Source of the DNA: Verrucomicrobia bacterium LP2A
GTDB lineage: Bacteria > Verrucomicrobiota > Verrucomicrobiia > Methylacidiphilales > Methylacidiphilaceae
Length of the DNA: 64,000 bases
NCBI GenBank assembly: GCA_000526255.1
Contig: JAFS01000002.1
Span: forward strand, 62,001 to 126,000
Direction of reading: 5' to 3'
The translations under genes were made by a program, and so were the position numbers. Below, piece after piece: positions 10,009 through 34,479 of this stretch. Position 1 is the stretch's first letter, and each line of letters starts with the position of its first letter. Below the pieces are notes generated by a model. That model was not told the DNA's origin. It saw only the letters and a list, made by a program, of their open reading frames with translations, and did no database searches.

Positions 10009-10401
10009 CTAGGCGCTTCCCGAGAGCCCGCCCGTCTTCCGAGCCGCATCGAGCAGGGCCTTTGCGGCCCCCGCATGGCTGGCCAGGGAGAGCAGGTCGC
10101 CTTTGGGGAGCTGGACCTTGCCTCCCATGACGGCACCCACCATGTTTTCCCGGCCTTCGATCAGCGCCCGCCAGGTTTCTTCGCTCGCCGAAAAGACGGC
10201 GTCGGCCCGTGCGACCGTCTCCTCCGACGAAAGCGCCGTCGCCGAACGGCAGCCGCCGCCTTCCAGATCCAGGAGGATTCCCTTTTGCCCGGTAACCAGG
10301 CCAAGACGGATCTTCCACTGCTCTCCCTCCTTTTGGAACGCTTCGCTCTCTCCGATGGCCTTGCGCCAGGCATCTGCCGCTCTCTGCTCGAATGGGTCCA
10401 T
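10009..10401 (-). CDS. SCP2 sterol-binding-domain protein
   Basis: A 130-residue protein with the SCP2/sterol-carrier fold pattern: WKIRLGLVTGQKGILLDLEG, then an aDavfs strand (ARADAVFSASEETWRALIEG), then MGGKVQLPKGDLLSLAS. Such domains bind lipophilic ligands and often stand alone in bacteria with no assigned role. Starting at ATG 10401 (MDPFEQRAADAW) removes an unlikely proline/arginine-rich leader that would reach into the ppk promoter. It is convergent with dnaE2 and divergent from ppk, with about 110 bases between the two starts. Confidence 0.75.
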   Translation of the reverse strand: MDPFEQRAADAWRKAIGESEAFQKEGEQWKIRLGLVTGQKGILLDLEGGGCRSATALSSEETVARADAVFSASEETWRALIEGRENMVGAVMGGKVQLPKGDLLSLASHAGAAKALLDAARKTGGLSGSA

Positions 10402-10511
10402 GGCTCTGCGCTTACTGCCCCATTGCCTCGCTGTCAATGTCAGCCGGGGCGTCGGAGCCCGAGATTTCGGTCGGCGGGCGGCCCAGCTCATGCTTTACTC
10501 AAGCGTTGCCA

Positions 10512-12698
10512 ATGGCTAGCGACTTCGACGATCCTGCCTACTACATCAACCGGGAGCTCTCCTGGCTCGAGTTCAACGCCCGGGTCCTGGAAGAGGCGGC
10601 GGATACCACGCAACCGCTCCTGGAACGGCTTCGTTTCCTCTGCATCTTTAGCTCGAATCTCGACGAGTTCTTCGAGATCCGGGTCGCCGGGATCAAGCAG
10701 CAGGTCGAAAACCAGAGCGACCAAGAGGGCCCCGACGGACTGAGCCCGGAAGAGGTCTGCGATGCGATCCAGCAGCGAGCGCACCAGCTCGTCGCCCGCC
10801 AGTACGAGATCTGGCGAAACGAGGTCGAGCCGCTCCTGAGGAAGAACGGCATCGTCCTCTGCCAAAAGAACGATCTTGCCGCGGAGGAGCGGGCGTGGGC
10901 AGAGCGCTACTTCACCAACGAGATCCTGCCCGTGCTCACACCGCTGGCGGTCGACCCGAGCCATCCCTTCCCCCAGGTGACGAACAAGAGCTTCAACCTG
11001 ATCGTCACGCTGCGCCGACCGGTGTCGGCCCATCTGGCGGGTTTCGAGATCGTCCAGGTCCCCCACAACCTGCCGCGCCTCCTCACCCTGCCGGGCAGCG
11101 GTCAGGACCGATATCGCTTCATCCAGATCAAGGAGGTGATCGGCCTCTTCCTCGGCAGCCTCTTTCCGGGAGATGAGATCAGCGACATCAACGGCTTCCG
11201 CGTGACGCGGAACAGCGACCTCTACATCGACGACGAGGAGGCCGAGAACCTGCTGCAGACGGTCGAGGAAGAGCTGCGCAAGCGGAACCGGGGAAACGCA
11301 GTCCGCCTGGAGATCGAAGAGAGCTGTCCTCCCGAGATGGAGGAGTTTCTTCTCCATGCACTCCAGCTGAAGAAGGCGGACAGCTACCGCCACTTCGAGC
11401 CGCTCAGCTTCCTCCATCTCCTGCCGATCTGCGCCCACGAGGCCTTTCCGCAGCTACGGGATCGTCCGTGGACTCCCGTGATTCCGAAGGAGCTGGCCTC
11501 CCATTCGGATCTTTTCGATCTCCTTCGCCGCCGGGATGTCCTGCTCCACCATCCCTTCGAGAGCTTCGGCATCATTGTCGATCTGTTGCGCCGGGCGGCG
11601 GACGATCCCGGAGTGCTCGGGATCCGGATGACACTCTACCGGACGGGAGGGGAGTCCCCGATCGTCCGTGCCCTGATGCGCGCGGCGCAAAACGGCAAGC
11701 AGGTGACGGCCCTTGTCGAGATCAAGGCGCGCTTCGACGAGGCGAACAACATCGTCTGGGCGAGGCAGCTCGAGGAGGCCGGCGTTCACGTCGTCTACGG
11801 CCTCCTGGGCCTCAAGACCCATTGCAAGATGCTCGAGATCATCCGTCGCGACCCGGATCGGATCCGGCTCTACGTCCACCTGGGGACGGGGAACTACCAC
11901 GTCGGCACGGCCCGGCTCTACACCGACCTGAGCCTTCTGACGACCCGGGACGATCTCACCAAGGAGGTGGGCACCCTCTTCAACATCCTCACGGGCCTCT
12001 CCCGCTTCCACGGGATTCACAAGCTCCTGGTCGCCCCGTTCCGCATGGCGGAGGAGTTCCACGAGCGGATCGCCGCGGAAACGGCCTTCGCGCGGCAGGG
12101 GAAGCCGGCGCGCATCATCGCGAAAATGAACGCCTTGGTGGATCCGGAAATCATCAAGGCGCTCTACCGCGCCTCCGCGACCGGCGTTCAGATCGACCTG
12201 ATCATCCGCGGCATCTGCTGCCTTCGGCCTGGAATCCCCGGAGTGAGCGAGCGGATCCGTGTCGTCAGCATCGTGGGTCGCTTCCTCGAGCACTCGCGTA
12301 TCTTCTACTTCGAGAACAACGGGGATCCCAGGATCTACCTGAGCAGTGCGGACTGGATGCCGCGCAATCTCTACCGGAGAATCGAGGTCGCCTTCCCGGT
12401 CGAGGACCCCGAGATCAAGAAGCGTCTGAGGAACGAGATCCTGGAGGTCTACCTCTCGGATTGCGTCAAGGCGCGGGAGCTCCAGCCCGACGGAAGCTAC
12501 CTGCGACTGAAGCCTTCTTCCGATCGAAGCCCTGTCCAGGCGCAGTTTCAACTCCGCCACCTCGCTCGAGCCCAGCTTGGCTTCGACCGCCTCCAGAGGC
12601 CAGAGAGCATCGCGATCGTTCCGCAGCAGCGTCCGACCCTTCCGCCTCCTCCGACGGAGATGTCCTCTCCCCTGCCGGAAGAGCCCGATCTCTTTTAG
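10512..12698 (+). CDS. ppk1: Polyphosphate kinase 1
   Basis: Transfers the gamma phosphate of ATP reversibly to polyphosphate. The 728-residue protein begins MASDFDDPAYYINRELSWLE, the conserved N-terminal helix. The autophosphorylated histidine lies in LKTHCKMLEI (about 438) and the second catalytic histidine in RFLEHSRIFYF. The substrate loop GTGNYHVGTARLYTD follows. Start ATG 10512 is preferred; the longer frame has no family signature. Its stop overlaps that of the convergent fmdB-type gene. Polyphosphate storage suits a stress-tolerant acidophile, but that link is an inference. Confidence 0.95.
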   Translation: MASDFDDPAYYINRELSWLEFNARVLEEAADTTQPLLERLRFLCIFSSNLDEFFEIRVAGIKQQVENQSDQEGPDGLSPEEVCDAIQQRAHQLVARQYEIWRNEVEPLLRKNGIVLCQKNDLAAEERAWAERYFTNEILPVLTPLAVDPSHPFPQVTNKSFNLIVTLRRPVSAHLAGFEIVQVPHNLPRLLTLPGSGQDRYRFIQIKEVIGLFLGSLFPGDEISDINGFRVTRNSDLYIDDEEAENLLQTVEEELRKRNRGNAVRLEIEESCPPEMEEFLLHALQLKKADSYRHFEPLSFLHLLPICAHEAFPQLRDRPWTPVIPKELASHSDLFDLLRRRDVLLHHPFESFGIIVDLLRRAADDPGVLGIRMTLYRTGGESPIVRALMRAAQNGKQVTALVEIKARFDEANNIVWARQLEEAGVHVVYGLLGLKTHCKMLEIIRRDPDRIRLYVHLGTGNYHVGTARLYTDLSLLTTRDDLTKEVGTLFNILTGLSRFHGIHKLLVAPFRMAEEFHERIAAETAFARQGKPARIIAKMNALVDPEIIKALYRASATGVQIDLIIRGICCLRPGIPGVSERIRVVSIVGRFLEHSRIFYFENNGDPRIYLSSADWMPRNLYRRIEVAFPVEDPEIKKRLRNEILEVYLSDCVKARELQPDGSYLRLKPSSDRSPVQAQFQLRHLARAQLGFDRLQRPESIAIVPQQRPTLPPPPTEMSSPLPEEPDLF

Positions 12699-19632: not shown

Positions 19633-21687
19633 TTAGCCCCGTGTCCGCGCCAAGGTGCGGCGCGCGGCCTCCGCGACCGCCTCCCCCGTGAGGCCAAACT
19701 CCTTGTAGATGGTGGCATACGGCGCCGACGCCCCAAAATGGTCGATGCCTACGGCCTCCCCATCGGCTCCGATCCAGCGCGGCCATGCCAGCGTCACCCC
19801 CGCTTCGACCGAGACGCGGGCGCGAATCCCGGCGGGGAGCACCTGCTCGCGATAGGATTCCGGCTGCCGGGCGAAGAGCTCCCAGGAAGGCAGCGAGACG
19901 ACCCGGGAGCGGATCTTCTCTCCCGAAAGGAGCTCTCGCGCCGCGAGCACAAGGGACACCTCGGAGCCCGTGGCGATCAGGATGACCTCCGGTTCCGGGT
20001 CCCCGACGAGCAGATACCCTCCGCGCCGGGCCTCCGAGGCGGGGGCGAAGCGGCTCCGATCGAGCACCGGCAGGGCTTGACGGGTCAGGATCAGGGCGGT
20101 CGGGCCATCTTTCCGCTCGAGAGCCACGCGCCAGCCTTCGGCCGTTTCCGTGGCATCCGCCGGACGGAAGACCACGAGGTTGGGGATGGCACGAAGGGCG
20201 GTCAACTGCTCGACCGGCTGATGGGTAGGCCCATCCTCGCCGAGGCCGATGCTGTCATGGGTGAAGACGTAGACCACCGGAACCCCCATCATGGCGGCCA
20301 GCCGGATGGGTGGGCGCATGTAGTCCGAGAAGATCAGGAAGGTTCCCCCATAGGGACGAATGCCCCCATGAACCGCCATCCCGTTCATGAGAGAGCCCAT
20401 CCCATGCTCGCGGATGCCGTAATGGAGGTAGGCTCCCGCCAGGTCGTCCGGGCGGATCTCCTTGACCCCCTTGGCCAGCGTATTATTGGACGGGGTCAGG
20501 TCGGCGGAGCCGCCGAGGAGGTAGCCGACCTTCTCAAAGATCCCGTTGAGGACGGCCCCGGAAGCGGCGCGCGTGGCGAGCGGCTTCTCGAGCGGGAAGT
20601 GGGGCATTCCCTGATCCCATCCTGCCGGCAGATCCCGGCGCAGGGCGATCTCGAACCGTTCCGCTTCGAGGGAGAACTCCTTCCGGTAGCCCGCGAAGGC
20701 CTCGAGCCAGCGGCTCCGCTCGTCCGCCCCTTTCTTGGCGGCGGCCCGGAAGAAGCTCCTCACCTCCTCGGGGACGTAAAAGGCCTGATCGACCGGAAGG
20801 CCGAGGCGCTCCTTCGCAAGCTTCACCTCTTCCGCTCCCAGAGGCTCTCCGTGGGCCTTGGCGGTGTTCTCCCGGTTGGGGCTTCCGAAGCCGATCACGG
20901 TGCGGCAGGCGATGATGGTTGGCCTCTCCTCCTGGGAGGTCGCCCAGGTCAGCGCGGATTCGACCTCGGAGCGGTCGAGCCCATTGACCCTTCGGACATT
21001 CCAGCCGTAAGCGGCGAAGCGGCCGAGAACGTCCTCGCTGAACGAGAGAGAAGTCGGCCCGTCGATGCTGATGTGATTGTCGTCGTAAAGCACCACGAGC
21101 TTGCCCAGCCGCAGATGGCCGGCCAGTGCGGCCGCCTCGTGGGAGACGCCTTCCTCGAGGTCGCCATCGCTGGCGATCGCGAAGGTCCGGTGGCGGACCA
21201 CCTCGTGGCCCGGCCGGTTGTACTTCTGGGCCAGCCACCGTTCGGCGAGCGCCATCCCGACGGCGTTGGAGATGCCCTGTCCCAACGGCCCGGTCGTCGT
21301 CTCGACTCCCACCGTGTGGCCGTATTCCGGATGGCCCGGGGTCCGGCTGCCCCACTGCCGGAAGCGCTCGAGCTCGGCCATCGGCAGGTCGTAGCCGCAG
21401 AGATGGAGCAGGCTGTAGAGGAGCATCGATCCATGCCCGGCCGAGAGGACGAACCGGTCGCGGTCAGGCCACTGGGGATCGGCGGGATCGAAGCGCAAGA
21501 AGCGGGTCCAGAGAACGACGGCCGCATCGGCCATTCCCATGGGCATTCCGGGGTGGCCCGAATTCGCTTTCTGGACTCCATCCATCGCCAGGCCGCGAAC
21601 GACGTTGGCCGCCAAGGCGGCTAAGCGGTCTTCCTCGGAAGCATGGGACAAGCTGGGGGCAACTGGGGGGTTTGTTGTGCTACTCAT
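19633..21687 (-). CDS. tkt: Transketolase
   Basis: Thiamine-diphosphate enzyme that moves two-carbon units between sugar phosphates in the Calvin and pentose-phosphate cycles. The 684-residue length is normal. Conserved pieces include [20 protein letters not shown] near the N-terminus, the ThDP-binding GDGDLEEG-like region ([20 protein letters not shown]), [10 protein letters not shown], and the central GIREHGMG and [17 protein letters not shown] motifs. AAGGA precedes ATG 21687. It heads an operon with a histidine phosphatase and a CbbY-like phosphatase, 260 bases downstream of cbbX, so it acts as the cbbT of this Calvin-cycle cluster. Confidence 0.97.
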
Positions 21688-21947: not shown

Positions 21948-22901
21948 TCAAGCCTTTCCGAAGGTATCGCCCTCCCTTCCCTCCGGGCGGAAGACCCGGC
22001 TCTGCCGGATGTCGGATTCGTCGATCCGCATCAACTCCTTGGCGGGAACCCTGCCGCCCGCGGCGACCAGCCGGGCGGCCTGCCGCAGCTTGATGCGGTC
22101 GATCGCATTCCGGACGCTCCGCGCGTTGGCGAAAAGCGGCTGCTTGCGCCGGAGCTCCAGGTACTCTCGAAAGGCCTCCGCTGCGGGCGGATCGAAAAAG
22201 TAGGCTTGGCCGCGAACCATGAGATCCCCGATCGAGACGAGCTCGTCGAAGGTATAGTCGGGGAAATCGATGTGGTGGGCGATCCGGGAACGCAGGCCCG
22301 GATTCGAGCTGAAGAAGGCTGCCATCCGGTCCCGATAGCCCGCGAAGATCACGACCAGGTCGTTCCGATAATCCTCCATCGCCTGCAGGAGGATCGCCAC
22401 CGCCTCGATCCCGTAGTCCCGCTCGCTCTCGGGTCGATAGAGGGAGTAGGCCTCGTCGATGAAGAGCACGCCGCCCATCGCCCGCTTGATCGCCTCCTTG
22501 GTCTTCGGGGCGGTGTGGCCGACATATTGTCCGACCAGATCGTCGCGGGCGGCGACAACCAGATGCCCTTTCCGCACGTAGCCCAGCCGATGAAGAATTT
22601 TCCCCATCCGCAGCGCGACGGTCGTCTTTCCGGTCCCCGGAGAGCCCGTAAAGGACATGTGGAGCGTCGGCGCCTGGGTTTGCAGCCCGATCGAGCTCCG
22701 CAGCCGCTCGATCAGGAGAAAATCCGCAATCTCCCGGACCCGGCGCTTGACCGGCGCAAGGCCGATGAGCTCGGCGTCGAGCTCGGTCAAGATCTCCCCC
22801 ACCCCGGCGCCGCCGAGCGCCTGGTCGAGGTCGACCAGGCCGCTTCCGTCGACGGCGGCCGCTTGGGCAGCCGCCTCGGTTTCTTTCCCCGCTTCTTCCA
22901 T
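21948..22901 (-). CDS. cbbX: CbbX, red-type RuBisCO activase (AAA+)
   Basis: A hexameric AAA+ ATPase that removes inhibitory sugar phosphates from red-type (form IC/ID) RuBisCO by pulling the large-subunit C-terminus. The 317 residues include Walker [16 protein letters not shown], Walker [15 protein letters not shown], the pore-loop region [20 protein letters not shown] and an arginine-finger region [20 protein letters not shown] 22901 is chosen because GGAGGACC precedes it. It follows a cbbS fragment and precedes transketolase. An intact activase beside a locus without cbbL implies a working RuBisCO elsewhere in the genome or a recent deletion here. Confidence 0.93.
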
Positions 22902-22918: not shown

Positions 22919-23179
22919 TCAAGAGCCATTGGCCCACGCCCCTGAGTCGCGATGGCCGGGAGGCTTCTGGGCGGCGTAGGGGCGGGTGGTGGAGCGGATC
23001 TGCCGGTCCGCGGCCTCCATCCGGTTGAGGAAGAATCCGGGCTCCTCCTTCGGCCGCTCCACCAGGAACGAGAGCGTCATGCTCTGATCCCCCTGCTGCC
23101 GGTTGTCGCCGTTGATCCGAATGTAGTCCTCAGGACGAGCCTTCCGGCACTCCGCCAGCTCGTGCATCACCATCGCCAT
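22919..23179 (-). pseudogene. cbbS: RuBisCO small subunit, C-terminal portion only
   Basis: The 86-residue frame carries the second half of a form I small subunit: [20 protein letters not shown], then [20 protein letters not shown] and [19 protein letters not shown]. The N-terminal half (the PDLTDEQI and WEMWGLPMFD region of red-type CbbS) is missing, and upstream DNA reads unrelated sequence. AGGAGAAGAG precedes ATG GCG ATG at 23179, so the fragment could still be translated. No cbbL is present upstream; about 130 bases further the cbbR stub begins. It directly precedes cbbX, the usual cbbS position. It may be a deletion product or a short expressed peptide. Confidence 0.8.
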
Positions 23180-23237
23180 AGCTCTTCTCCTATGCGTTTC
23201 CCGGCTCGAGGCCTCCTCCTGCCCCCACCGGCTCTCC

Positions 23238-23311
23238 TCCACTTATACCCCATCGCTACGAATAATTCTCTTTGATTGTTTTTATCTACCCAATAAGTTT
23301 ACTAAATAGAT
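23238..23311 (-). promoter_or_regulatory. Retained cbb operon control region between cbbS and cbbR remnants
   Basis: AT-rich DNA in a GC-rich setting. On the minus strand it reads TTAGTAAACTTATTGGGTAG and continues to a -10-like TATAAG at 23242-23247; GGAGGAG follows. LysR-type regulators such as CbbR bind TN11A sites in such divergent spacers. Its position between the divergent cbbR start and cbb genes supports the assignment. Confidence 0.4.
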
Positions 23312-23380
23312 GTGACGCTGCAGCAGCTGCGGCTCCTCGAGGCGATCGCCCATCACCGGAGCTTCACCAAGACGGCACGG
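23312..23380 (+). pseudogene. cbbR: CbbR (LysR-type regulator), 5' stub
   Basis: From GTG 23312 the frame reads MTLQQLRLLEAIAHHRSFTK, the start of a LysR-family helix-turn-helix and typical of CbbR. It then departs from the family after about 23 residues. The rest of the regulator (about 300 residues) is absent. It is divergent from the cbbS-cbbX remnants, the standard cbbR position. The match covers the first helix only, but together with location it is convincing. Confidence 0.65.
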
Positions 23381-23673: not shown

Positions 23674-24003
23674 ATGACTGCAGTGATTCGCGCCGGCGGG
23701 AAGCAATACCGCGCGGAAGAGGGAGCCGTTCTCGAAATCGAGCTCCCGAAGAAAGGCATTTCAGCCGGAGAGAGGTTGACCACCGAAGAGGTGCTCCTCA
23801 TCGAGAGCGACGGCGAAACCAAGGTCGGCACCCCCCGTGTGCCGGGAGCGAAGGCGGTATTGGAAGTTCTGGAGGAGATCCGAGCCCCGAAGGTTGTCGC
23901 TTTCCGCTATAGGCGCCGCAAGGGTTACCACCGGACGGTGGGCCATCGACAGCATCTGGCGCGCGTCCGCGTGGTGGAGTTCGTCATCGACAAGAAGGGA
24001 TAG
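23674..24003 (+). CDS. rplU: 50S ribosomal protein L21
   Basis: A 109-residue L21: MTAVIRAGGKQYRAEEGAVL at the N-terminus and KVVAFRYRRRKGYHRTVGHR in the 23S-rRNA-binding C-terminal half. ATG 23674 is set by GGAGG at 23666-23670; the longer frame is leader. It opens the conserved rplU-rpmA-obgE operon, with nine bases before rpmA. Confidence 0.96.
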   Translation: MTAVIRAGGKQYRAEEGAVLEIELPKKGISAGERLTTEEVLLIESDGETKVGTPRVPGAKAVLEVLEEIRAPKVVAFRYRRRKGYHRTVGHRQHLARVRVVEFVIDKKG

Positions 24004-25966: not shown

Positions 25967-27364
25967 TCAAAGCTCACCCGCCTCAATCATGCGGATGAGT
26001 GTTGCAATGTCGGCCCCGTAGTTCTTCTCCCGTTTTGCATGCTTGTGTGGGTCGTAGGCTTCCGGCGCACGCATCGGGTGCACCCTTCCCATCACCGGCA
26101 GCCCGTACCCGATGGCATCGTCCGGCAGTCGATAACCCATCTCGACAAGCTCCGGTTCGCGTTTACGCTCGAACCGTGGGCGCTTCTGCTTGTTGCTGTG
26201 AATGCCCTCTGTGAACAGAATCTTCGCCCGCAGGGCCTCGAAGCTGTAGCCTCGGCCCAACCGATTCATCACCCGGATCAGTGAGTTCAGCGATTCCCTG
26301 TAGGCATTCGTCACCGGATGCTCGAAGTAGTTTGGGATGAAGGGCTGCCAGTTGGTGAAGGCACGGACCAGGTCGGCGAAGTAGGGCCGGATTTCGGTCG
26401 AGATAGCCCTGTACCACGCCTCGAAGCGCCGCAAGGCTTCCTCTGGCGTCCCGGCCTCATAGATGCCGTAGAAGCCTTCCTTGAGGCTGTATGCCTCTCC
26501 CAAGGCCGGGTAGTTCTTCGTCCAGCCATCGAGGTTCAGGCGCTCTTCGTCGTTCAGGTCGCGCTCGCGCTTGAGCATGACGCAGCGGTCGTGCATCAGA
26601 CCGCGCTTCTGTTTCAGCGTCAGTTCGGCACGCAGTCCCTTGCGTGCTTTCTCCATCGCGTCGTTCGCCATCCTAACGACGTGGAACTTGTCGATGACGA
26701 TGGTGGCATCTGGCAGTACCGCGCTCACCGCGTCGCGGTAGGGCGTCCACATGTCCATCGCCACGTATTGAACCTTGTCCCGGTTCGGCATCTGGAACAG
26801 GCACTTCGCCACCGTGTCCTTGTTTCGGTTGTGGAGCATGTCCACGATGGTGTTGCTCTGGATGTTCGAGACGACGCAGCGCGGCTTGTTGATGATGTGG
26901 AGTTCGTCGATCCCCATCCACTTCGGCGTCTCGAAGCGGACGGTCTGCTCAAGCTCGTTGATGTAGTCCCGGAAGATGTTGCGGATCGTTCCTTCGACCA
27001 CGCCGGTTTCATCGGCCAGCGAGGTGAAGGTGCGCTTCAAGGCTTGTTGCCCGATCGACTTCACCAGCCGGTCGGTCATCATCATCCTGTTCTCGGCCAG
27101 CATCGGCAGCGCCTGCGAGAACGTCTTGCCGCAGGCTTGGCAGCGCAGCCGCTTGGTGTCGATGTAGATGCCTACACGCTTGCCGTGCATGGGCAAGTCC
27201 TTGAACCCCTGCTCGCGGGTGCCCCAAGAGATCAGGCGGTCGGACTGGCAGTGCGGGCAGGCCGAGGTCACGTCCACCGGCTCAGCGGTGACGTGGTAGT
27301 CATGGTCAGATTCCTCAACCCGCAGCACGCGGTACTGCGGGAGGTTCAGGATGTTGGCGGGCAC
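25967..27364 (-). CDS. tnpA: ISL3-family transposase
   Basis: A 465-residue DDE transposase. An N-terminal zinc ribbon (CPHCQSDRLISWG and CQACGKTFSQALP) precedes a helix-turn-helix. The catalytic domain shows MGIDELHIINKPRCVVSNIQ (first Asp), DMWTPYRDAV and VIDKFHVVRMAND (second Asp), and a C-terminal Glu region (KEGFYGIYEAGTPEEALRRF). All parts look intact and the length is normal for ISL3. It lies 14 bases inside the left terminal repeat. Its closest relatives are probably proteobacterial, judging from the protein style; that is an inference. Confidence 0.95.
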   Translation of the reverse strand: MPANILNLPQYRVLRVEESDHDYHVTAEPVDVTSACPHCQSDRLISWGTREQGFKDLPMHGKRVGIYIDTKRLRCQACGKTFSQALPMLAENRMMMTDRLVKSIGQQALKRTFTSLADETGVVEGTIRNIFRDYINELEQTVRFETPKWMGIDELHIINKPRCVVSNIQSNTIVDMLHNRNKDTVAKCLFQMPNRDKVQYVAMDMWTPYRDAVSAVLPDATIVIDKFHVVRMANDAMEKARKGLRAELTLKQKRGLMHDRCVMLKRERDLNDEERLNLDGWTKNYPALGEAYSLKEGFYGIYEAGTPEEALRRFEAWYRAISTEIRPYFADLVRAFTNWQPFIPNYFEHPVTNAYRESLNSLIRVMNRLGRGYSFEALRAKILFTEGIHSNKQKRPRFERKREPELVEMGYRLPDDAIGYGLPVMGRVHPMRAPEAYDPHKHAKREKNYGADIATLIRMIEAGEL

Positions 27365-27481
27365 TGTTCACAGCCTCGTGATTCTGCTTGGGTCGGTGCC
27401 ACAAGGCCGGATCAGAAGCCAGACCTGCCACCGCCCATCAGGTTCGCCGTGGGAGATAAGCATGACCGAGCAAGAAGTTTT

Positions 27482-27775
27482 TTAACTGCTCAAGCCCCAT
27501 GCCTCAACCGCCTCCTTTGCGGAGACGGTCGCCTCTGCGATCAGGCTGCGAGCCAGATCGGCAAGAGGCACCTCCGACAGGCGCTTCCGGCTCTCATTGA
27601 CCCGTTGCACCAACTTGTCGAACACGAAAACCGGCCCGTCCTTGACCCAGTAGGTCGCGTTGGGCCCGCCTTCAATCTTGCGCAAGTCTTCCTTGAGAGT
27701 GTCGTTCTGACCACCGAAGCAGCAGCCAAACACGTCGAGGAATACCGGCATGGCTTGTTGCGCGGGAGCGGTCAT
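27482..27775 (-). CDS. Hypothetical passenger protein of the ISL3 transposon
   Basis: A 97-residue protein (MTAPAQQAMPVFLDVFGCCF ...) with two cysteines side by side, a central FVFDKLVQRVNESRKRL helix and an alanine-rich C-terminal helix. No family recognised. It follows the nucleotidyltransferase gene by 14 bases on the same strand and ends about 120 bases before the transposase gene, so it is probably the third gene of the passenger operon. Confidence 0.5.
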   Translation of the reverse strand: MTAPAQQAMPVFLDVFGCCFGGQNDTLKEDLRKIEGGPNATYWVKDGPVFVFDKLVQRVNESRKRLSEVPLADLARSLIAEATVSAKEAVEAWGLSS

Positions 27776-27789
27776 TGGCGTACTTCCTT

Positions 27790-28515
27790 TCACGGTTCCA
27801 TCCCATAGTCGTCAGAACGATCCGGTTCCATGTCGCACACCCGGTCAAAGATGACGGTCGAAAGGTGCGAGCAAGCCGATTTGACGGCCTGCCAGTCATG
27901 CCAGCGCGGATCGAGGTTCTTGTACTCGTTCAATTCGGTTTCTTCCAAGTCGTAGGGCAGTGCGTTGGCGAGCTGGACCTGCAATTGCTGTAGCGGTGAT
28001 TCGCCACTATCCTGCTGGTAGAGGCGGTCGAATGATTGCAGCGCATGGGCAACGCTCTCATCGCCCATGTGATCGGCCAAAGCCACGAAGTCGAGGTAGT
28101 CTCGCGTGGCATTGCGCTTGAGGATCAACACCCCCTTGATGCGCAGAATCTCGCCTTCGGTCGGAACCGTGATTCGAGCACCGTGGTAGTCCACCACGGC
28201 CGTTTCCAGCGGTTCGTCGCGGATAAGCTGGCGAACCCCGGTTTCGATGCCGTCGAGACTGCCAAGGATTGGCACGGGGCGCTGTACGCGGGCTGTCTTC
28301 CAGCCTGCGACCGACTCAAGCTCAGCCAGCACCTCGTCAAAGCGATGTCGCAGATCGGTCAGTACATGGTCGGCGTCACGGGAGAAGCGTTGCTCTGCGT
28401 GGATTGCAGAAGCGGTTCCTCCCACCAGCACGGCATCCGGCAGGATGCGCTGGAGTCGTGCGGCAGAGGACAAGACGAGTTCCCAGTCAGGCAGCGGTGC
28501 GGTGTTCTTCGGCAT
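27790..28515 (-). CDS. Nucleotidyltransferase-fold protein, AbiEii/MenT-like
   Basis: A 241-residue protein with nucleotidyltransferase signatures: VLVGGTASAIHAEQRFSRDA, giving the GG...S/T motif and the DAD acidic pair. A later VPTEGEILRIKGVLILKRNA and TRDYLDFVALADHMG recall the AbiEii/DUF1814 group of toxin-like enzymes that modify tRNA or other targets. Start ATG 28515 overlaps the upstream small gene by 29 bases. It is carried by an ISL3 transposon. Toxin function is inferred from fold and gene context, not shown; an equally short partner sits upstream, as in two-gene toxin-antitoxin loci. Confidence 0.65.
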   Translation of the reverse strand: MPKNTAPLPDWELVLSSAARLQRILPDAVLVGGTASAIHAEQRFSRDADHVLTDLRHRFDEVLAELESVAGWKTARVQRPVPILGSLDGIETGVRQLIRDEPLETAVVDYHGARITVPTEGEILRIKGVLILKRNATRDYLDFVALADHMGDESVAHALQSFDRLYQQDSGESPLQQLQVQLANALPYDLEETELNEYKNLDPRWHDWQAVKSACSHLSTVIFDRVCDMEPDRSDDYGMEP

Positions 28516-28714
28516 AGTGCATCCAGAAATGATGGCGTTGCGCGTAAGGGTCGGAAGCGTAAGGGCGGCAAACACGCGCCACCTTCTCCAGCAAGGTGCG
28601 GTCGGACAACGCCGCCCGGCGCAGTTCAGCCCATTCCCGCCACCGCCCGCGTGAGATCACGTCGTCGATGGCAGCGAGGGTGAAGCGCTGATGGTTGAGG
28701 TGGCGATGAAGCAT
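28487..28714 (-). CDS. Small partner protein upstream of the nucleotidyltransferase
   Basis: A 75-residue protein (MLHRHLNHQRFTLAAIDDVI then RGRWREWAELRRAALSDRTL) ending in HHFWMHYAEEHRTAA. It is helical, basic in the middle and soluble. It overlaps the nucleotidyltransferase gene, as antitoxins often do with toxins. A longer start at 28750 would run through the repeat at 28721-28740, which is more likely an operator or transposon end, so ATG 28714 is preferred. No named family recognised. Confidence 0.5.
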   Translation of the reverse strand: MLHRHLNHQRFTLAAIDDVISRGRWREWAELRRAALSDRTLLEKVARVCRPYASDPYAQRHHFWMHYAEEHRTAA

Positions 28715-28720
28715 GGCAAA

Positions 28721-28849
28721 CAACACACTTTTACGATTGTCGATAATCACACCTTACGTAAGCAGGGCGGAGAAAGCAACACGCTTTTGCGATTGTCTGA
28801 TCCGATGCAGTGTTGTTCGGCAGGACGCACTGCAACACACTTTTACGAA
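28721..28849. repeat. Three directly repeated ISL3-end-like motifs
   Basis: CAACACACTTTTACGATTGT at 28721-28740, CAACACGCTTTTGCGATTGT at 28777-28796 and CAACACACTTTTACGAA at 28833-28849. The third is the inner part of the right terminal repeat. The first lies a few bases upstream of the passenger operon. They may be transposase binding sites, an operator, or leftovers of nested ends. Confidence 0.7.
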
Positions 28850-28879
28850 TACCCGCAAAAAGCGTCCGAAGGATGCTAG

Positions 28880-28967
28880 GGAGCTTCCGGCACCCGGGAA
28901 GTGCCGCGTTCCTCAAAGCCGGAAAGTTGCGGCTCGATCTTCCCGCTCTACCCACTTGAAACAGCGA
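28880..28967. repeat. 88-bp perfect repeat, copy 1
   Basis: Identical over 88 bases to 35029-35116, in the same orientation. It contains the hairpin CGGCAC-ccgggaa-GTGCCG. Its right edge abuts the hsdS 3' remnant. Identity stops abruptly at both ends. Confidence 0.85.
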
Positions 28968-29051
28968 CGGGGCTCTCTGCTTGATGGCGAGATAAAGGTC
29001 CTCGCCCGCCATAAGCACGGCCTGATGCAGCAGCTGCTGACGGGCGCATGA
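28968..29051 (+). pseudogene. hsdS: HsdS (type I restriction specificity subunit), C-terminal remnant
   Basis: The last 27 residues before the stop read LLDGEIKVLARHKHGLMQQL, the standard C-terminal helix of HsdS proteins (EIxxLxxHKxGLMQQL). Everything upstream is replaced by the 88-bp repeat. It is followed after 22 bases by the DUF3800 gene and further on by an hsdR head, so a type I restriction operon once stood here. Confidence 0.65.
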
Positions 29052-29073
29052 CAGGGGAAGGTGGCCAAATCCG

Positions 29074-29805
29074 ATGCCTGATTTCTCAGATTTCATCGTC
29101 TATGTTGATGAGAGCGGCGACCACGGCCTTGTCAGCATCGACCCAGAATACCCGGTGTTCGCGTTGACTTTCTGCGTGATGCGCAAGAGCGACTATACTG
29201 GCTCGGTCGTGCCCGCGACGCAGAACTTCAAGTTCGGCATCTGGGGACATGACGCGGTTGTTCTGCATGAGCACGAAATCCGCAAGAGCAAGGGTCCCTT
29301 CGCCATTCTGATAACGAACCGCGCCTTGCGGGAGCGCTTCTATGACGGATTAAACGCCCTGATCGAGGCCGCGCCGATGACCATCTTCGCCTCGATCATC
29401 CACAAGGAAAAGCTGCGGACCAAATACGTCAATCCCTGGAACCCGTATGAGATCGCGCTACTGTTCTGCATGGAGCGACTGCACGGAATGCTCACCGCCG
29501 AAAACCAGCACGGCAAAACTGTGCACGTGCTTTTCGAGAGCCGAGGGAAGAAGGAGGACTCCGATCTCGAGCTTGAATTCCGCCGGATCGCGGGGAATCA
29601 CAGCCACTTGGGCTCCAGGCGGTACGATTTCGGCCGGTTCGCTTTCCAGCACGTCTTCCTGCCGAAGGCCGCGAACGCCTCCGGATTGCAACTCGCGGAT
29701 CTGATGGCCCGGCCGATTGCCCTGTCGCACCTCCGCCCCGGCCAGCCGAACCGCGCCTTCGATATCATCCGCTCCACGCTCGGAGGGCTCAAATGCTTTC
29801 CCTAA
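29074..29805 (+). CDS. DUF3800-family protein
   Basis: A 243-residue protein starting with the DUF3800 signature FIVYVDESGDHGLVSIDPEY (VDESG), then HEHEIRKSKGPFA and a C-terminal LQLADLMARPIALS. DUF3800 proteins have an RNase H-like core with conserved acidic residues and are often found beside restriction or mobile genes; their activity is unsettled. It is intact and lies between hsdS and hsdR remnants, so it belonged to the type I locus. A hairpin follows at 29819-29851. Confidence 0.85.
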   Translation: MPDFSDFIVYVDESGDHGLVSIDPEYPVFALTFCVMRKSDYTGSVVPATQNFKFGIWGHDAVVLHEHEIRKSKGPFAILITNRALRERFYDGLNALIEAAPMTIFASIIHKEKLRTKYVNPWNPYEIALLFCMERLHGMLTAENQHGKTVHVLFESRGKKEDSDLELEFRRIAGNHSHLGSRRYDFGRFAFQHVFLPKAANASGLQLADLMARPIALSHLRPGQPNRAFDIIRSTLGGLKCFP

Positions 29806-29818
29806 GCGCTGGCGAAAA

Positions 29819-29851
29819 CAGAAGGGCCCCGGAAGCTCCAGGACCCTTCTG
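29819..29851 (+). terminator. Hairpin after the DUF3800 gene
   Basis: CAGAAGGG and its complement CCCTTCTG enclose a GC-rich loop. No clear T-run follows, so termination efficiency is uncertain. Confidence 0.4.
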
Positions 29852-29938
29852 TCGACCGGGAAATTCCCAATCCTTTATTCATCCTGTAGCCCAGAAACCC
29901 GATGCCTGCAAGTTTATCCGCGGCCGGAAGCATACCGC

Positions 29939-30136
29939 ATGACCTTCGACGCCGCCGAAAAGCATCAGTTCCAGATCCCCGCGCTGCAGATGCCGGCGAC
30001 GCTGGGGTTCAAGCCCCCATCCCAGGCCCAGGCTGTTCATGTACGCGGGGGCCGTCTGCGCAACGCGCTGCTTGACGGCATCCTCGCTGACCAGCTTCTA
30101 AGGATCAACGGCTTCACCTATCGTGACCGGACCTAT
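29939..30136 (+). pseudogene. hsdR: HsdR (type I restriction endonuclease), N-terminal remnant
   Basis: From ATG 29939 the frame reads MTFDAAEKHQFQIPALQMPA and RVRGGRLRNALLDGILADQL, the typical HsdR N-terminus (HQFQIPALQ, RGGRLRNVVLDxxLADQL). It ends where IS1380-type terminal sequence begins at 30137; the frame continues into the IS to 30226. The nuclease and helicase domains (about 1000 residues) are gone. The cause is an IS1380 insertion followed by further rearrangement. Confidence 0.7.
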
Positions 30137-30513
30137 CCGCCATTTCTCACCAACGCGAGGTTTCGCGCAAGCAAGGAAGGCAGGAGTCGATTGCGACGAT
30201 ATTCGGGAGGGAAAGGGTCTTCGTGAGCGGGGATGGAGCAAGATTTCTGCTCGATTTGGCGGAATGCGAGCTCTGCAAAGGGCAAAAACTCCGCTTCGGG
30301 ACCAAGGCTTCGTCCGATGGGAGACTTTTCCCGAAGGGGGAAGCGGTCTGGTTGTATGGATGCTCAGCAACGCAGCATCGGGAAGGCGTGGGTGGATGGG
30401 TGCTTCCCAGGATAGACGCCGCTCACCGACAAGAGGACGCATCCGACGCTGGCACAGACCAGCGTGCCGATCTTGAAGAGCTTGAACCGTAGGGTGTCGA
30501 GCTGGGCGTTGTC
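30137..30513 (-). mobile_element. IS1380-family element, 3'-end fragment A
   Basis: It begins with the terminal repeat CCGCCATTTCTCAC (30137-30150). Read on the minus strand it contains the last coding part of an IS1380 transposase (TLRFKLFKIGTLVCASVG), then non-coding tail. The same sequence, inverted and diverged by some tens of bases, forms 38120-38495. It is cut at 30513 by the IS3 element. Confidence 0.75.
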
Positions 30514-30588
30514 TGAAATGGACCCGCGCAGCGGGACCGCTTGAACCGGTTTCTTAATTGGAAGCTCGACCGCTCAGGGATCCTTTGA

Positions 30589-31539
30589 TCACGCAGCCCA
30601 AGGCTTCGCCATCTGCTTTTGCTGTGGGCATGCGGCCAACGCGTCAGCGTTGTCCATCCTGTTCCTAGCCGTAGCGGCGGCCATTCCTTCGCGCCAGACC
30701 GCCAAGGGCGTGCGGTAGCCAAGCGCCTCATGCAGGCGGGATTCGTTGTAAAACTCCATCCATTCGGCAATGCCGGCCTCCGCTCCACAGCCATCGGCAT
30801 AGCCCTTGAGATTGACCTCCTCGTGCTTGAGCGAACGCCAGACTCGCTCAATGAAGACATTATCCATCCACCGCCCTCGGCCATCCATGGATCTCTTCAC
30901 GCCAGCCTCCGCCAGCGCGCTCGTGAAGACGGGGCTGGTGAACTGCGAGCCCTGATCGGTGTTGAAAATCTCCGGCTTGCCGTGGCGCGCCAGGGCGTCT
31001 TCAAGCGCCGCAAGGCAGAACGACCCCTCCATCGGATTGGAAATCCGCCAGGCCAGAACCGTGCGGCTGGCCCAGACGATGATTGCGGCCAGATAGAGAA
31101 AGCCCCGGCCAATCGGCAAAGAGGTGATGTCGCAGGCCCAGACGTGGTTCGGCCGCTCAATCTTCAGATCGCGCAGCAGATCGGGGAAAATCTTCTGCCC
31201 CGACGCCGGCTTGCTCGTATTTGGCTTCGGACCCAGCGCGGCGATCCCCATCTTGCGGATCAGCCGCTGCACACGCTTGCGGTTGACCGCCTTGCCCTCG
31301 GCCCTGACCATCTGCGTCATCCGGCGTGAGCCGAGGAACGGCCAGGCTGTGAACAACTCGTCGATGCGCCGCATCAGATCCAGGTCATCGTCCTTGGCCG
31401 GCTTTCTTTGCCGATAGACGCCGGAGCGCGTCACTCCGAGCAGCGCACATTGGCGGCGAACCGACAGCGACCGGGCGTCGCGATCGAGCAATCCTCGACG
31501 ATCCGGCGCTCTCATCGTCCGGATCTCCTGGCTAAACAA
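30589..31539 (-). CDS. IS3-family transposase OrfB
   Basis: A 316-residue integrase-core (DDE) protein. HTH_21 region near the N-terminus ([19 protein letters not shown]). Catalytic residues: Asp in [11 protein letters not shown], Asp in [11 protein letters not shown] and Glu in [16 protein letters not shown]. It is normally made as an OrfAB fusion by programmed frameshifting; the orfA and orfB frames overlap at 31512-31539. Intact. The truncated second copy at 38496-39370 is nearly identical. Confidence 0.94.
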
Positions 31540-31802
31540 TCGCGCTCGACGGTCAACTGGCCGATCTTGGCGTAGAGGTCCTCGACCTTTTTCTGCGCCG
31601 CCTTGTCCGCGTCGAGACCGACATTGGCCTCGAACGCCCGCGCGGCGTTCTCCAACAGCTGCTTTTTCCAGGCGTAAATCTGGTTCGGGTGCACCTCGTA
31701 GCGCTGGGCCAAATCCGCCACAGTCGCCTGCTCACGCACCGCCTCCAAGGCGATCTTCGCCTTCAGCGCCGCGCCAATCTTGCGTCTTGTCTTCTTCGTC
31801 AT
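31512..31802 (-). CDS. IS3-family transposase OrfA
   Basis: A 96-residue DNA-binding subunit with a helix-turn-helix ([20 protein letters not shown]) and a leucine-zipper-like C-terminal helix ([20 protein letters not shown]). It overlaps orfB by 28 bases. The second copy (39424-39633) differs by a nonsense change after residue 69. Confidence 0.92.
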
Positions 31803-31876
31803 GGTTCGCTCCGTTTGTCAAACAGAGCGGCCAATTTCCCATTTAGCCAATGGTCCCAAAAATGGGGTCCATTTCA

Positions 31877-32054
31877 ATGTCTTCCTTAAACGCGAAGTCG
31901 CGTTGACCTGGAGCGCGACAAGCCTCGCCGTTCAGGGCGGGGAAGGATAGCGGGGGAGGCGTTAGCTTTGGCTGAGTGTCCGTTGCTGGATGGACTCGTC
32001 ACTGGACATTCCACGGAAACCAAGGAACGTTTGCATCCATCATGATACGCCCGT
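31877..32054. other. Left part of tnpB element copy 2
   Basis: Non-coding. It includes CTCGCCGTTCAGGGCGGGGA near 31923, a pattern often seen at the 3' ends of tnpB loci, so another tnpB right end may have been inserted or abutted here. No gene is called. Confidence 0.3.
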
Positions 32055-33327
32055 ATGATTGAGCGCATGCGGCGGCTGCAAGCCTTCGGGTTTCAACTGC
32101 GGCCAGACGGCCAGCAAGAGCGGCAAATGCGCCGCTTCGCTGGCTCGTGCCGGGTTTTGTGTTCAACGAGGCGTTGAGCTTGCAGATGGCACGTTACGAT
32201 GCCGGAGAGAAGAAGCTCAGTTACGCCGGGCTGTGCAAGGAACTTACGAAATGGCGTAACGGCGAGCCCATGCCTTCCGGGCGTGTCGCGGCATGGCTGG
32301 CCGATGCGCCCGTTCATCCCTTGCAACAGGCGCTCAAGGACTTGGAGCGGGCCTACGGTAATTTCTTCGCCAAGCGGGCCGACTTCCCGCGCTTCAAGAA
32401 GAAGGGCCAGTCGGATCGCTTCCGTTACCCCGACCCGAAACAGATCAAGCTCGACCAGGCGAATGGCCGCCTCTTCCTGCCCAAGCTCGGCTGGCTGCGC
32501 TATCGCCTCAGCCGGGACGTGTTGGGAGAAGTGAGGAGCGTCACCGTCAGCCAGTCCTGCGGCAAGTGGCACGCGAGCATCCTGGCCGAGCGCGAAGTCG
32601 AGCAACCCATCCCGAAGGGCGGCGCGGTCGGCATCGACATGGGCGTGGCGCGGTTCGCCACGCTTTCGGATGGCACGTTCTATGCGCCGCTCAACAGCTT
32701 CAAGCGGCATGAAACCGCCCTGCGCAAGGCGCAGCAGGCCATGAGCCGCAAGGTCAAGTTCAGCAACAACTGGAAGAAGGCCAAGGCCCGAATCCAGAAG
32801 ATTCATTCCCGCATCGGCAATGCCCGCCGCGACTACCTGCACAAAGTCACGACCACGATCAGCAAAACCACGCGATGGCGTGCATTGAGGACTTGCAGGT
32901 GCGGAACATGTCCAAGTCGGCTTCGGGCACGGCGGATGCACCGGGAAGAAACGTTCGGGCCAAGTCTGGACTGAACAAGTCCATCCTCGACCAAGGCTGG
33001 TTCGAGTTCCGGCGGCAGCTGGAGTACAAGATGGAGTGGAGAGGCGGCCGCCTTCTGTTCGTGCCGCCGCGGAACACGAGCCGGACTTGTCCGTGTTGCG
33101 GCCACGTGTCGGCGGACAACCGTCGGACGCAAGCCCGGTTCGAGTGCGTGGAGTGCGGTTTTGAGGGAAACGCCGATTTGGTCGGCGCGATCAATGTCTT
33201 AAGGGCGGGGCACGCCCGGATCGCCTGTGAAGTGAGCGGCATCGAGTCGCCAGCAGCAGGAACCCACCGAAGCGGCTCATTCCGGTTCAAGCCCGGATTG
33301 AGCGCCGTAGGAATCTCCGAACTTTAG
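32055..33327 (+). pseudogene. tnpB: TnpB (IS200/IS605-family OrfB), copy 2, frameshifted
   Basis: Near-identical to the copy at 2-994 but broken twice. The ATG 32055 frame (MIERMRRLQAFGFQLRPDGQ) ends early because of a small indel near 32141-32150; homology resumes in another frame at FVFNEALSLQMARYDAGEKK. A run of five A in copy 1 is four A here at about 32866, shifting the frame before ACIEDLQVRN. The rest is open to 33327. RuvC acidic residues and zinc cysteines are still encoded in pieces. It supplies the N-terminal sequence missing from copy 1. Confidence 0.9.
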
Positions 33328-33343
33328 GCCGGGGAGGATGCCA
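33288..33343 (+). repeat. Conserved right end of tnpB element, copy 2
   Basis: Matches 955-1010 except for a few substitutions; identity is lost after GGATGCCAA. Marks the element boundary and the possible omega-RNA scaffold end. Confidence 0.45.
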
Positions 33344-33448
33344 ATCACCTTGGCTTGTTGCGCATCGGCACGGTGTGGCGGAACGGCGTCCGCGTCGCTC
33401 GCGTCGAGCGCGCCAGGGAACGATTCCGGGTATCGTTTGACGAGAAAG
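33344..33448 (+). other. Unassigned coding-like fragment
   Basis: An open frame reads RIGTVWRNGVRVARVERARE and continues to FDEKG before the IS1595 end. It looks like the remains of a protein gene, but I do not recognise it. Flanked by two mobile elements. Confidence 0.25.
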
Positions 33449-34479
33449 GGGTATCCCCTTCACTCTTGTTGCTGTTTCACCCGAGCCTGGCCGGTGTCGA
33501 TGATCGCGCTGTACGGGGCGGGGGAAACGGCGACGGCCTGCTCGACGAGCCTGTGAAAGAGCAAGCCCCTGGCCCGTGAGCGGCGGCGATTGAAGCGGAA
33601 GGTGAACTCGTCGAGGTAGTAGTCGATATGCTGGCGCTGGACGCCGCCCTGATGCGTGCCGAGCAGCCACCGCTTGAGAAGCGCGGCGACGGTGTGAACG
33701 CGCGGCATGACCTCGTGCGCCGGATCGGAGCCGGCGCCGATGACGCTGACTTGGTACTGGTAGCCGGCCGCCATCAGCCCAGCATAGCCGCTCCAGCCAT
33801 CGGTATGGATGGTCGCTCCCGGCGCCACGGCCTCCTGAACGAAGGCCAGCAGGCTGTTCGCGGACACGTCCTTGACCCGGCGCAGGCGGATGCGGCCGAT
33901 GCCCTTGCCACGTTCCTCGGCCGCCACCGCGACAATGGCCTTGGTCTCGGTTTCTCGTCCCCCCTTGCCCTTCTCCAAGCCGCCGACATAAATCTCGTCC
34001 ACCTCCACAGTTCCACAAAGACTGTCCCGTCCGGGACGGACCATCGCCCGGCGCAGCTTGTGCAACCACGTCCAGGCCGTCTCATAGCTGCCCAGCCCCA
34101 ACACCCGCTGCAGCCCAAGGGCGCTGACGTCATTTTTCTGGCTGGTGACGAACCACATCGCCATGAACCACGTCCGTAGGGGTTTGCGCGTTCCTTCGAA
34201 GATCGTGCCGGCCGTCAGCGACGTCTGGCCCTGGCATCTCTGGCAACGCAGGAGACCACGCGCCGTCTCCCACGCTTCCCCACTCCACCCACACAGTGGA
34301 CAAATGAACCCAGCTGGCCAGCGCAGGCGCCGGATATAATCCCGGCAAGCCTCGTCTGTCCGGAACCGCTCGTCCATCTCCAGGAACGTGCGCGGGTAAT
34401 CGACGCCCGGGACGGGATGCGCTGCGTTGTCCATGCCGGCGCGATAGCATCAGCGGCTACGAGAGTGAAGGGGATAGCC
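33449..34479 (-). mobile_element. IS1595-family element
   Basis: Terminal repeats GGGTATCCCCTTCACTC (33449-33465) and GAGTGAAGGGGATAGCC (34463-34479) match at 16 of 17 positions and enclose a single transposase; 1031 bp. Flanking 8-mers CGAGAAAG and ATTTCCCC do not match. Confidence 0.85.
33460..34434 (-). CDS. IS1595 (ISXO2-like) transposase
   Basis: A 324-residue transposase with an N-terminal zinc ribbon (CPLCGWSG and CQRCQGQTSLTAG) and an ISXO2-like DDE domain: EVDEIYVGGLEKGKGG (first Asp), HTDGWSGYAGL (second Asp) and the terminal EFTFRFNRRRSRARGLLFHR motif (HxxN/FNRR type). The stop lies within the left terminal repeat. It appears intact. Confidence 0.94.
   Translation of the reverse strand: MDNAAHPVPGVDYPRTFLEMDERFRTDEACRDYIRRLRWPAGFICPLCGWSGEAWETARGLLRCQRCQGQTSLTAGTIFEGTRKPLRTWFMAMWFVTSQKNDVSALGLQRVLGLGSYETAWTWLHKLRRAMVRPGRDSLCGTVEVDEIYVGGLEKGKGGRETETKAIVAVAAEERGKGIGRIRLRRVKDVSANSLLAFVQEAVAPGATIHTDGWSGYAGLMAAGYQYQVSVIGAGSDPAHEVMPRVHTVAALLKRWLLGTHQGGVQRQHIDYYLDEFTFRFNRRRSRARGLLFHRLVEQAVAVSPAPYSAIIDTGQARVKQQQE

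Follow-up and report, generated by a model that had tools for sequence, protein, structure and literature searches.

Upstream of the RuBisCO activase gene cbbX, in the 64,000-nucleotide stretch of DNA analysed here (the window), lies a fragment of the RuBisCO small-subunit gene cbbS, and opposite it a short, divergent piece of the regulator gene cbbR. What became of the rest of the operon, where is RuBisCO encoded in this genome, and is the fragment kept for a purpose? We conclude that the site is very probably a scar of operon duplication followed by differential loss, that the fragment is a decaying pseudogene, and that cbbX, together with the transketolase gene tkt, is likely read from the old promoter.

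Anatomy of the site

Leftwards from the ribosomal protein gene rplU (23674), the site comprises a control region, an 86-codon frame (23179-22919), cbbX (22901-21948) and tkt (21687-19633). The genes and the parts of the scar are as follows.

19633-21687, minus strand: tkt, transketolase; intact, downstream of cbbX
21948-22901, minus strand: cbbX, RuBisCO activase; intact, with AAA and lid domains; dN/dS 0.11-0.13 relative to relatives
22919-23179, minus strand: 86-codon scar frame and its stop, in which the cbbL start is fused in frame to the cbbS tail; decaying
22946-23167, minus strand: cbbS remnant, codons 65-138; PF00101 positions 55-97
23159-23176, minus strand: junction of the deletion, in an 18-bp imperfect direct repeat GGCGATGGTGATGCACGA; the switch falls in GGTGA (23167-23171)
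23168-23179, minus strand: cbbL remnant, codons 1-4 (ATG GCG ATG GTG), aligned to the intact cbbL 5' ends of the second site of this genome (G000) and of the relatives G004 and G005
23180-23191, minus strand: cbbL ribosome site AGGAGAAGAGCT, now preceding the scar frame; AGGAGAAAAGCT at the second-site cbbL of G000
23674-24003, plus strand: rplU (L21), right-hand neighbour of the site, syntenic across the genus

Alignment with intact copies revealed that the scar frame reads MAMV, corresponding to cbbL codons 1-4, followed by MHELAEC..., corresponding to cbbS codons 65-138. Relative to the intact copy in the same genome, approximately 1,655 bp are absent between cbbL codon 4 and cbbS codon 65. 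An earlier note on this DNA had claimed that only the C-terminal part of cbbS precedes cbbX, and that cbbL and the first half of cbbS are gone. Both claims are borne out. In a Pfam profile search, a 107-codon ORF containing the scar frame matched PF00101 with 30.9 bits (cut-off 27), a partial match limited to profile positions 55-97 of 97, the final 43; cbbS codons 1-64 are absent, only codons 1-4 of cbbL are present, and the interval between the cbbS fragment and the cbbR stub contains no cbbL. In contrast, AGGAGAAGAG and the ATG that follows it, which had been taken for the start of the cbbS fragment itself, both belong to cbbL in the alignment with intact copies. The native cbbS stop has been lost: the old HRY* end is altered and the frame continues beyond it.

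The breakpoints, which the earlier note had proposed to locate by alignment, lie inside the 18-bp repeat. In intact copies the two versions of the repeat are GGCGATGGTGAAGCACGA, at the cbbL start, and GGCGGGGGTGATGCACGA, within cbbS; they agree at 15 of 18 positions, and the GGCGATGGTGATGCACGA of the scar places the switch in GGTGA, between informative mismatches. The repeat is carried at both parental positions, as for a pseudogene arising by short-direct-repeat recombination. This pattern is the signature of deletion between short direct repeats, and from it we infer the mechanism.

RuBisCO genes at a second site

The genome under study is 99.9% complete (2.47 Mb in 3 contigs) and was assigned to Methylacidimicrobium by a CbbX search of named genomes. 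The search for cbbL and cbbS advocated in the earlier note, made by protein family and at the DNA level, found an intact form I cbbL-cbbS pair with a full, divergent cbbR at 862-864 kb of contig C1. This second site is flanked by cbbR and by an aconitase-family gene, the latter named by eye from its translation. The large subunit scores 747 bits, the NCBIfam cut-off being 438. Loss of RuBisCO from the genome is ruled out by this intact form I copy.

The two halves of the scar, on either side of the 18-bp overlap, are each 91-92% identical to the second-site copy. Repeated genes often break assemblies, as the drafts G001-G003 suggest, and the scar might on that account be an assembly artefact or a chimera of the two copies. 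However, it diverges by about 8% from the second copy on both sides of the junction and has substitutions of its own, and is therefore not a mis-join of second-copy reads; we rejected the chimera on this ground and assign an artefact next to no probability.

Substitutions in the fused frame

At columns that are invariant in all seven intact alignment rows, the scar carries seven non-synonymous changes (Y to D twice, Y to S, T to M, M to T, Q to E and D to N) and no synonymous change. The private changes of the intact rows, in contrast, comprise 6 non-synonymous and 17 synonymous ones (Fisher one-sided p = 0.0008, an approximate value, as the alignment rows are related). Pairwise dN/dS is 0.48 between the scar and the intact copy of the same genome, and 0.03-0.11 among intact pairs differing by more than one base. 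That the scar frame is still open counts against its being a pseudogene; however, when 8-20 random substitutions were simulated, the frame stayed open in 52-76% of runs, so that the open frame is no evidence of use. On this substitution pattern, the fused frame is a pseudogene evolving without constraint. The scar was seen in one genome of the species, and a shared scar was looked for, and not found, in other Methylacidimicrobium.

The earlier note had also considered that a small-subunit fragment might be kept for another purpose. One such role would be that of a functional 86-residue peptide that, for instance, regulates RuBisCO or CbbX or takes part in their assembly. An open, in-frame fusion behind a good ribosome site would suit such a peptide. 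This explanation is nevertheless highly improbable, given the ratio of seven non-synonymous to zero synonymous changes at otherwise invariant columns, which include three replacements of Tyr by Asp or Ser, the lost native stop and the absence of cbbS codons 1-64. Moreover, the frame is absent from the other species examined, including the sites of G002 and G006 that likewise lack cbbLS.

A second possible role is that of a translated leader coupling translation to cbbX. With the frame ending at 22919 and the cbbX start at 22901, ribosomes reaching the new stop, 17 nt before that start, would halt beside it. We regard such coupling as unlikely, as cbbX has its own GGAGGA near the ATG and both G002 and G006 manage without a leader of this kind.

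Two cbb sites in the genus

In two other genera of the family (g2 and g3), cbbL, cbbS, cbbX and tkt are contiguous. Since this gene order is common to both genera, the window site is taken to be the ancestral one. It resembles this Methylacidiphilaceae form I operon in its location, flanking gene order and intact cbbX and tkt, but lacks cbbL as well as cbbS codons 1-64, RuBisCO being encoded at the second site.

G004 is the sister of G000, a relationship that is well supported in the tkt tree and in that of the FAD-dependent reductase gene adjoining cbbR, and more weakly supported for obg. It carries cbbLS at both sites, which are syntenic with those of G000 and have a closely related control region. 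Unlike in G000, both copies are intact, and a different spacer occupies the position of the cbbR stub at the old site. The cbbS tails of the two G004 copies are 99.5% identical to each other, pointing to conversion or a very late duplication. Several species use the same pair of sites, which makes an old duplication combined with conversion the simpler reading. The dS between the scar and the intact copy of its own genome is 0.13. For the intact cbbS tails, G000 and G004 differ by a dS of 0.23-0.25; conversion therefore stopped, or the deletion occurred, after these two lineages split but not recently. The earlier suggestion of a fresh deletion with RuBisCO encoded elsewhere is thus supported as to the location but not as to the age, given this dS and the seven amino-acid changes.

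The old site of G002 and of G006 (M. tartarophylax) has neither cbbLS nor a scar, and cbbX lies behind the control element. The distance between rplU and cbbX is 538 bp in G002, and no cbbS was found in the 370 bp searched upstream of cbbX in G006 (contig 97). These sites share with that of G000 the loss of cbbLS and the retention of the control element before cbbX, but differ in that no cbbL or cbbS remnant was found in them. G002 and G006 group apart from G000 and G004 in the trees, and G003 and G004 retain old-site cbbLS; the loss in G002 and G006 was therefore a separate one.

The arrangement in G005 is the mirror image of that in G000. Both have a single cbbLS and a cbbR at the other site, but in G005 cbbLS is found only at the old site. 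At its second site (L156:8660-9180), cbbR adjoins the aconitase-family gene, cbbLS is missing, and only part of the control element is left. This may represent either a mirror-image loss or the pre-duplication state. The drafts G001 and G003 break at the cbb genes, and the broken ends of G003 are consistent with two copies. Gene duplication and loss is an ordinary process, and its intermediate states are unusually complete in these relatives.

A cluster of IS genes occupies positions 25967-34434 of the window (an ISL3-family transposase at 25967-27364 by Pfam, the others named by eye). It starts just past the segment collinear with G004, and is therefore probably a later insertion in this species.

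Retained control region and cbbR stub

Further features between the scar frame and rplU are as follows.

23242-23247, minus strand: TATAAG, putative -10 box of the promoter that served cbbL; GTATAAG recurs in nearly every copy within the genus
23262-23285, minus strand: control element ATAANAACAATCAAATAGNATTAT, putative CbbR operator, conserved in sequence
23306-23376, plus strand: cbbR stub, 24 codons; ATA replaces ATG (23306-23308); 93% identical to nt 1-71 of the genome's own cbbR

As claimed earlier, cbbX is intact and the control region is kept. CbbX carries PF00004 (AAA) and PF17866 (AAA lid 6) domains; its full-length alignment to the TIGR02880 equivalog scores 455.8 bits, just under the cut-off of 459.25, and synteny supports the name. 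The gene is constrained (dN/dS of 0.13 relative to G004 and 0.11 relative to G005). The element ATAANAACAATCAAATAGNATTAT has one mismatch in each of the sites devoid of cbbLS (G000, G002 and G006) and is near-invariant in most others; its position and conservation suggest that it may be a CbbR operator. The retained feature is probably the promoter driving cbbX. The earlier idea that cbbX came to lie directly behind the old cbb promoter fits these data, and is strengthened by the separate loss in G002 and G006, which left the same element. No reports on cbbX in Methylacidiphilum or on the separation of cbbX from cbbL were found in the literature library searched.

The divergent CbbR N-terminus, put at about 23 residues in the earlier note, is real. 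The stub matches 24 of the 312 codons of the genome's own CbbR (tblastn E 8e-11) and lacks the complete helix-turn-helix and effector domains of this LysR-family regulator; as its start codon is ATA instead of ATG, it does not merit a gene annotation. These 71 bp of cbbR, which end at a CAAGGCG microhomology, stand where other species (G004 and, in part, G003) have spacer. At this position, the G004 spacer measures about 115 bp and includes a block (CATGCTA..TGTCAAGGC) that is common to G004 and G003 at 25 of 32 bases, a value above 20 being reached in none of 2000 shuffles. On the minus strand this shared block is TTGACA-N16-TAGCAT-like; it points at cbbL at the old site of G004 (L019, about 10388-10970) and is absent from G000. 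It may represent a second promoter for the operon at this site.

The stub could be what remains of a former local cbbR that decayed at the old site. The divergent cbbR-cbbL order is common in bacteria, and in other species the two sites are homologous up to about the cbbR start codon, both of which fit a local origin. In the sister G004, however, the spacer differs at the stub position and includes the block shared with G003, which the stub replaces in G000, and the gene upstream of cbbL in the outgroups G007 and G008, the members of g2 and g3 examined, is transaldolase-like (named by eye) and not cbbR. We therefore consider a local origin doubtful. As judged from these alignments, ectopic conversion from the second site is the probable source of the stub, with the reservation that the ancestral spacer is not certain.

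Proposed course of events

The promoter-cbbL-cbbS unit of Methylacidimicrobium occupies two sites, the old one between rplU and cbbX-tkt and the second one between cbbR and the aconitase-family gene. In our model, gene conversion probably maintained the similarity of both copies in this species until it and its sister had separated. Recombination or slippage between the two short direct repeats would then have deleted about 1,655 bp from the old copy, leaving RuBisCO to be supplied from the second site. The in-frame remnant is decaying and may still be translated as a leader. As a likely outcome, the old cbb promoter with its putative CbbR element drives cbbX-tkt directly, CbbR now being provided in trans.

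As a tentative and rather doubtful extension, selection may have removed cbbLS from the cbbX-tkt operon at least twice in the genus, leaving the CbbR-type promoter in place. RuBisCO and its activase would thereby have become two co-regulated units, the amounts of which are free to vary apart.

The cbb genes illustrate how a core autotrophy operon can move, being copied, probably homogenised by conversion, and lost at different sites in different species, and how a promoter may be kept for the gene left behind. Annotators should read the remnant neither as a small-subunit gene nor as a sign of Calvin cycle loss, the host being an acid-loving, methane-eating bacterium with an intact RuBisCO copy elsewhere in its genome.

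The same genome also encodes a form II RuBisCO of 465 aa (C1:1108568-1109962; L002:1057-2454), which scores 809 bits against NF010002 (cut-off 489) and has form II enzymes among its closest solved chains. Orthologues are present in G004 (98%) and in G006, M. tartarophylax (89%), and were not found in the other Methylacidimicrobium or Methylacidiphilum genomes searched. In excerpts from a review (PMC8498564), only form I RuBisCO is mentioned for verrucomicrobial methanotrophs. A form II enzyme in a verrucomicrobial methanotroph is possibly of more interest than the scar itself.
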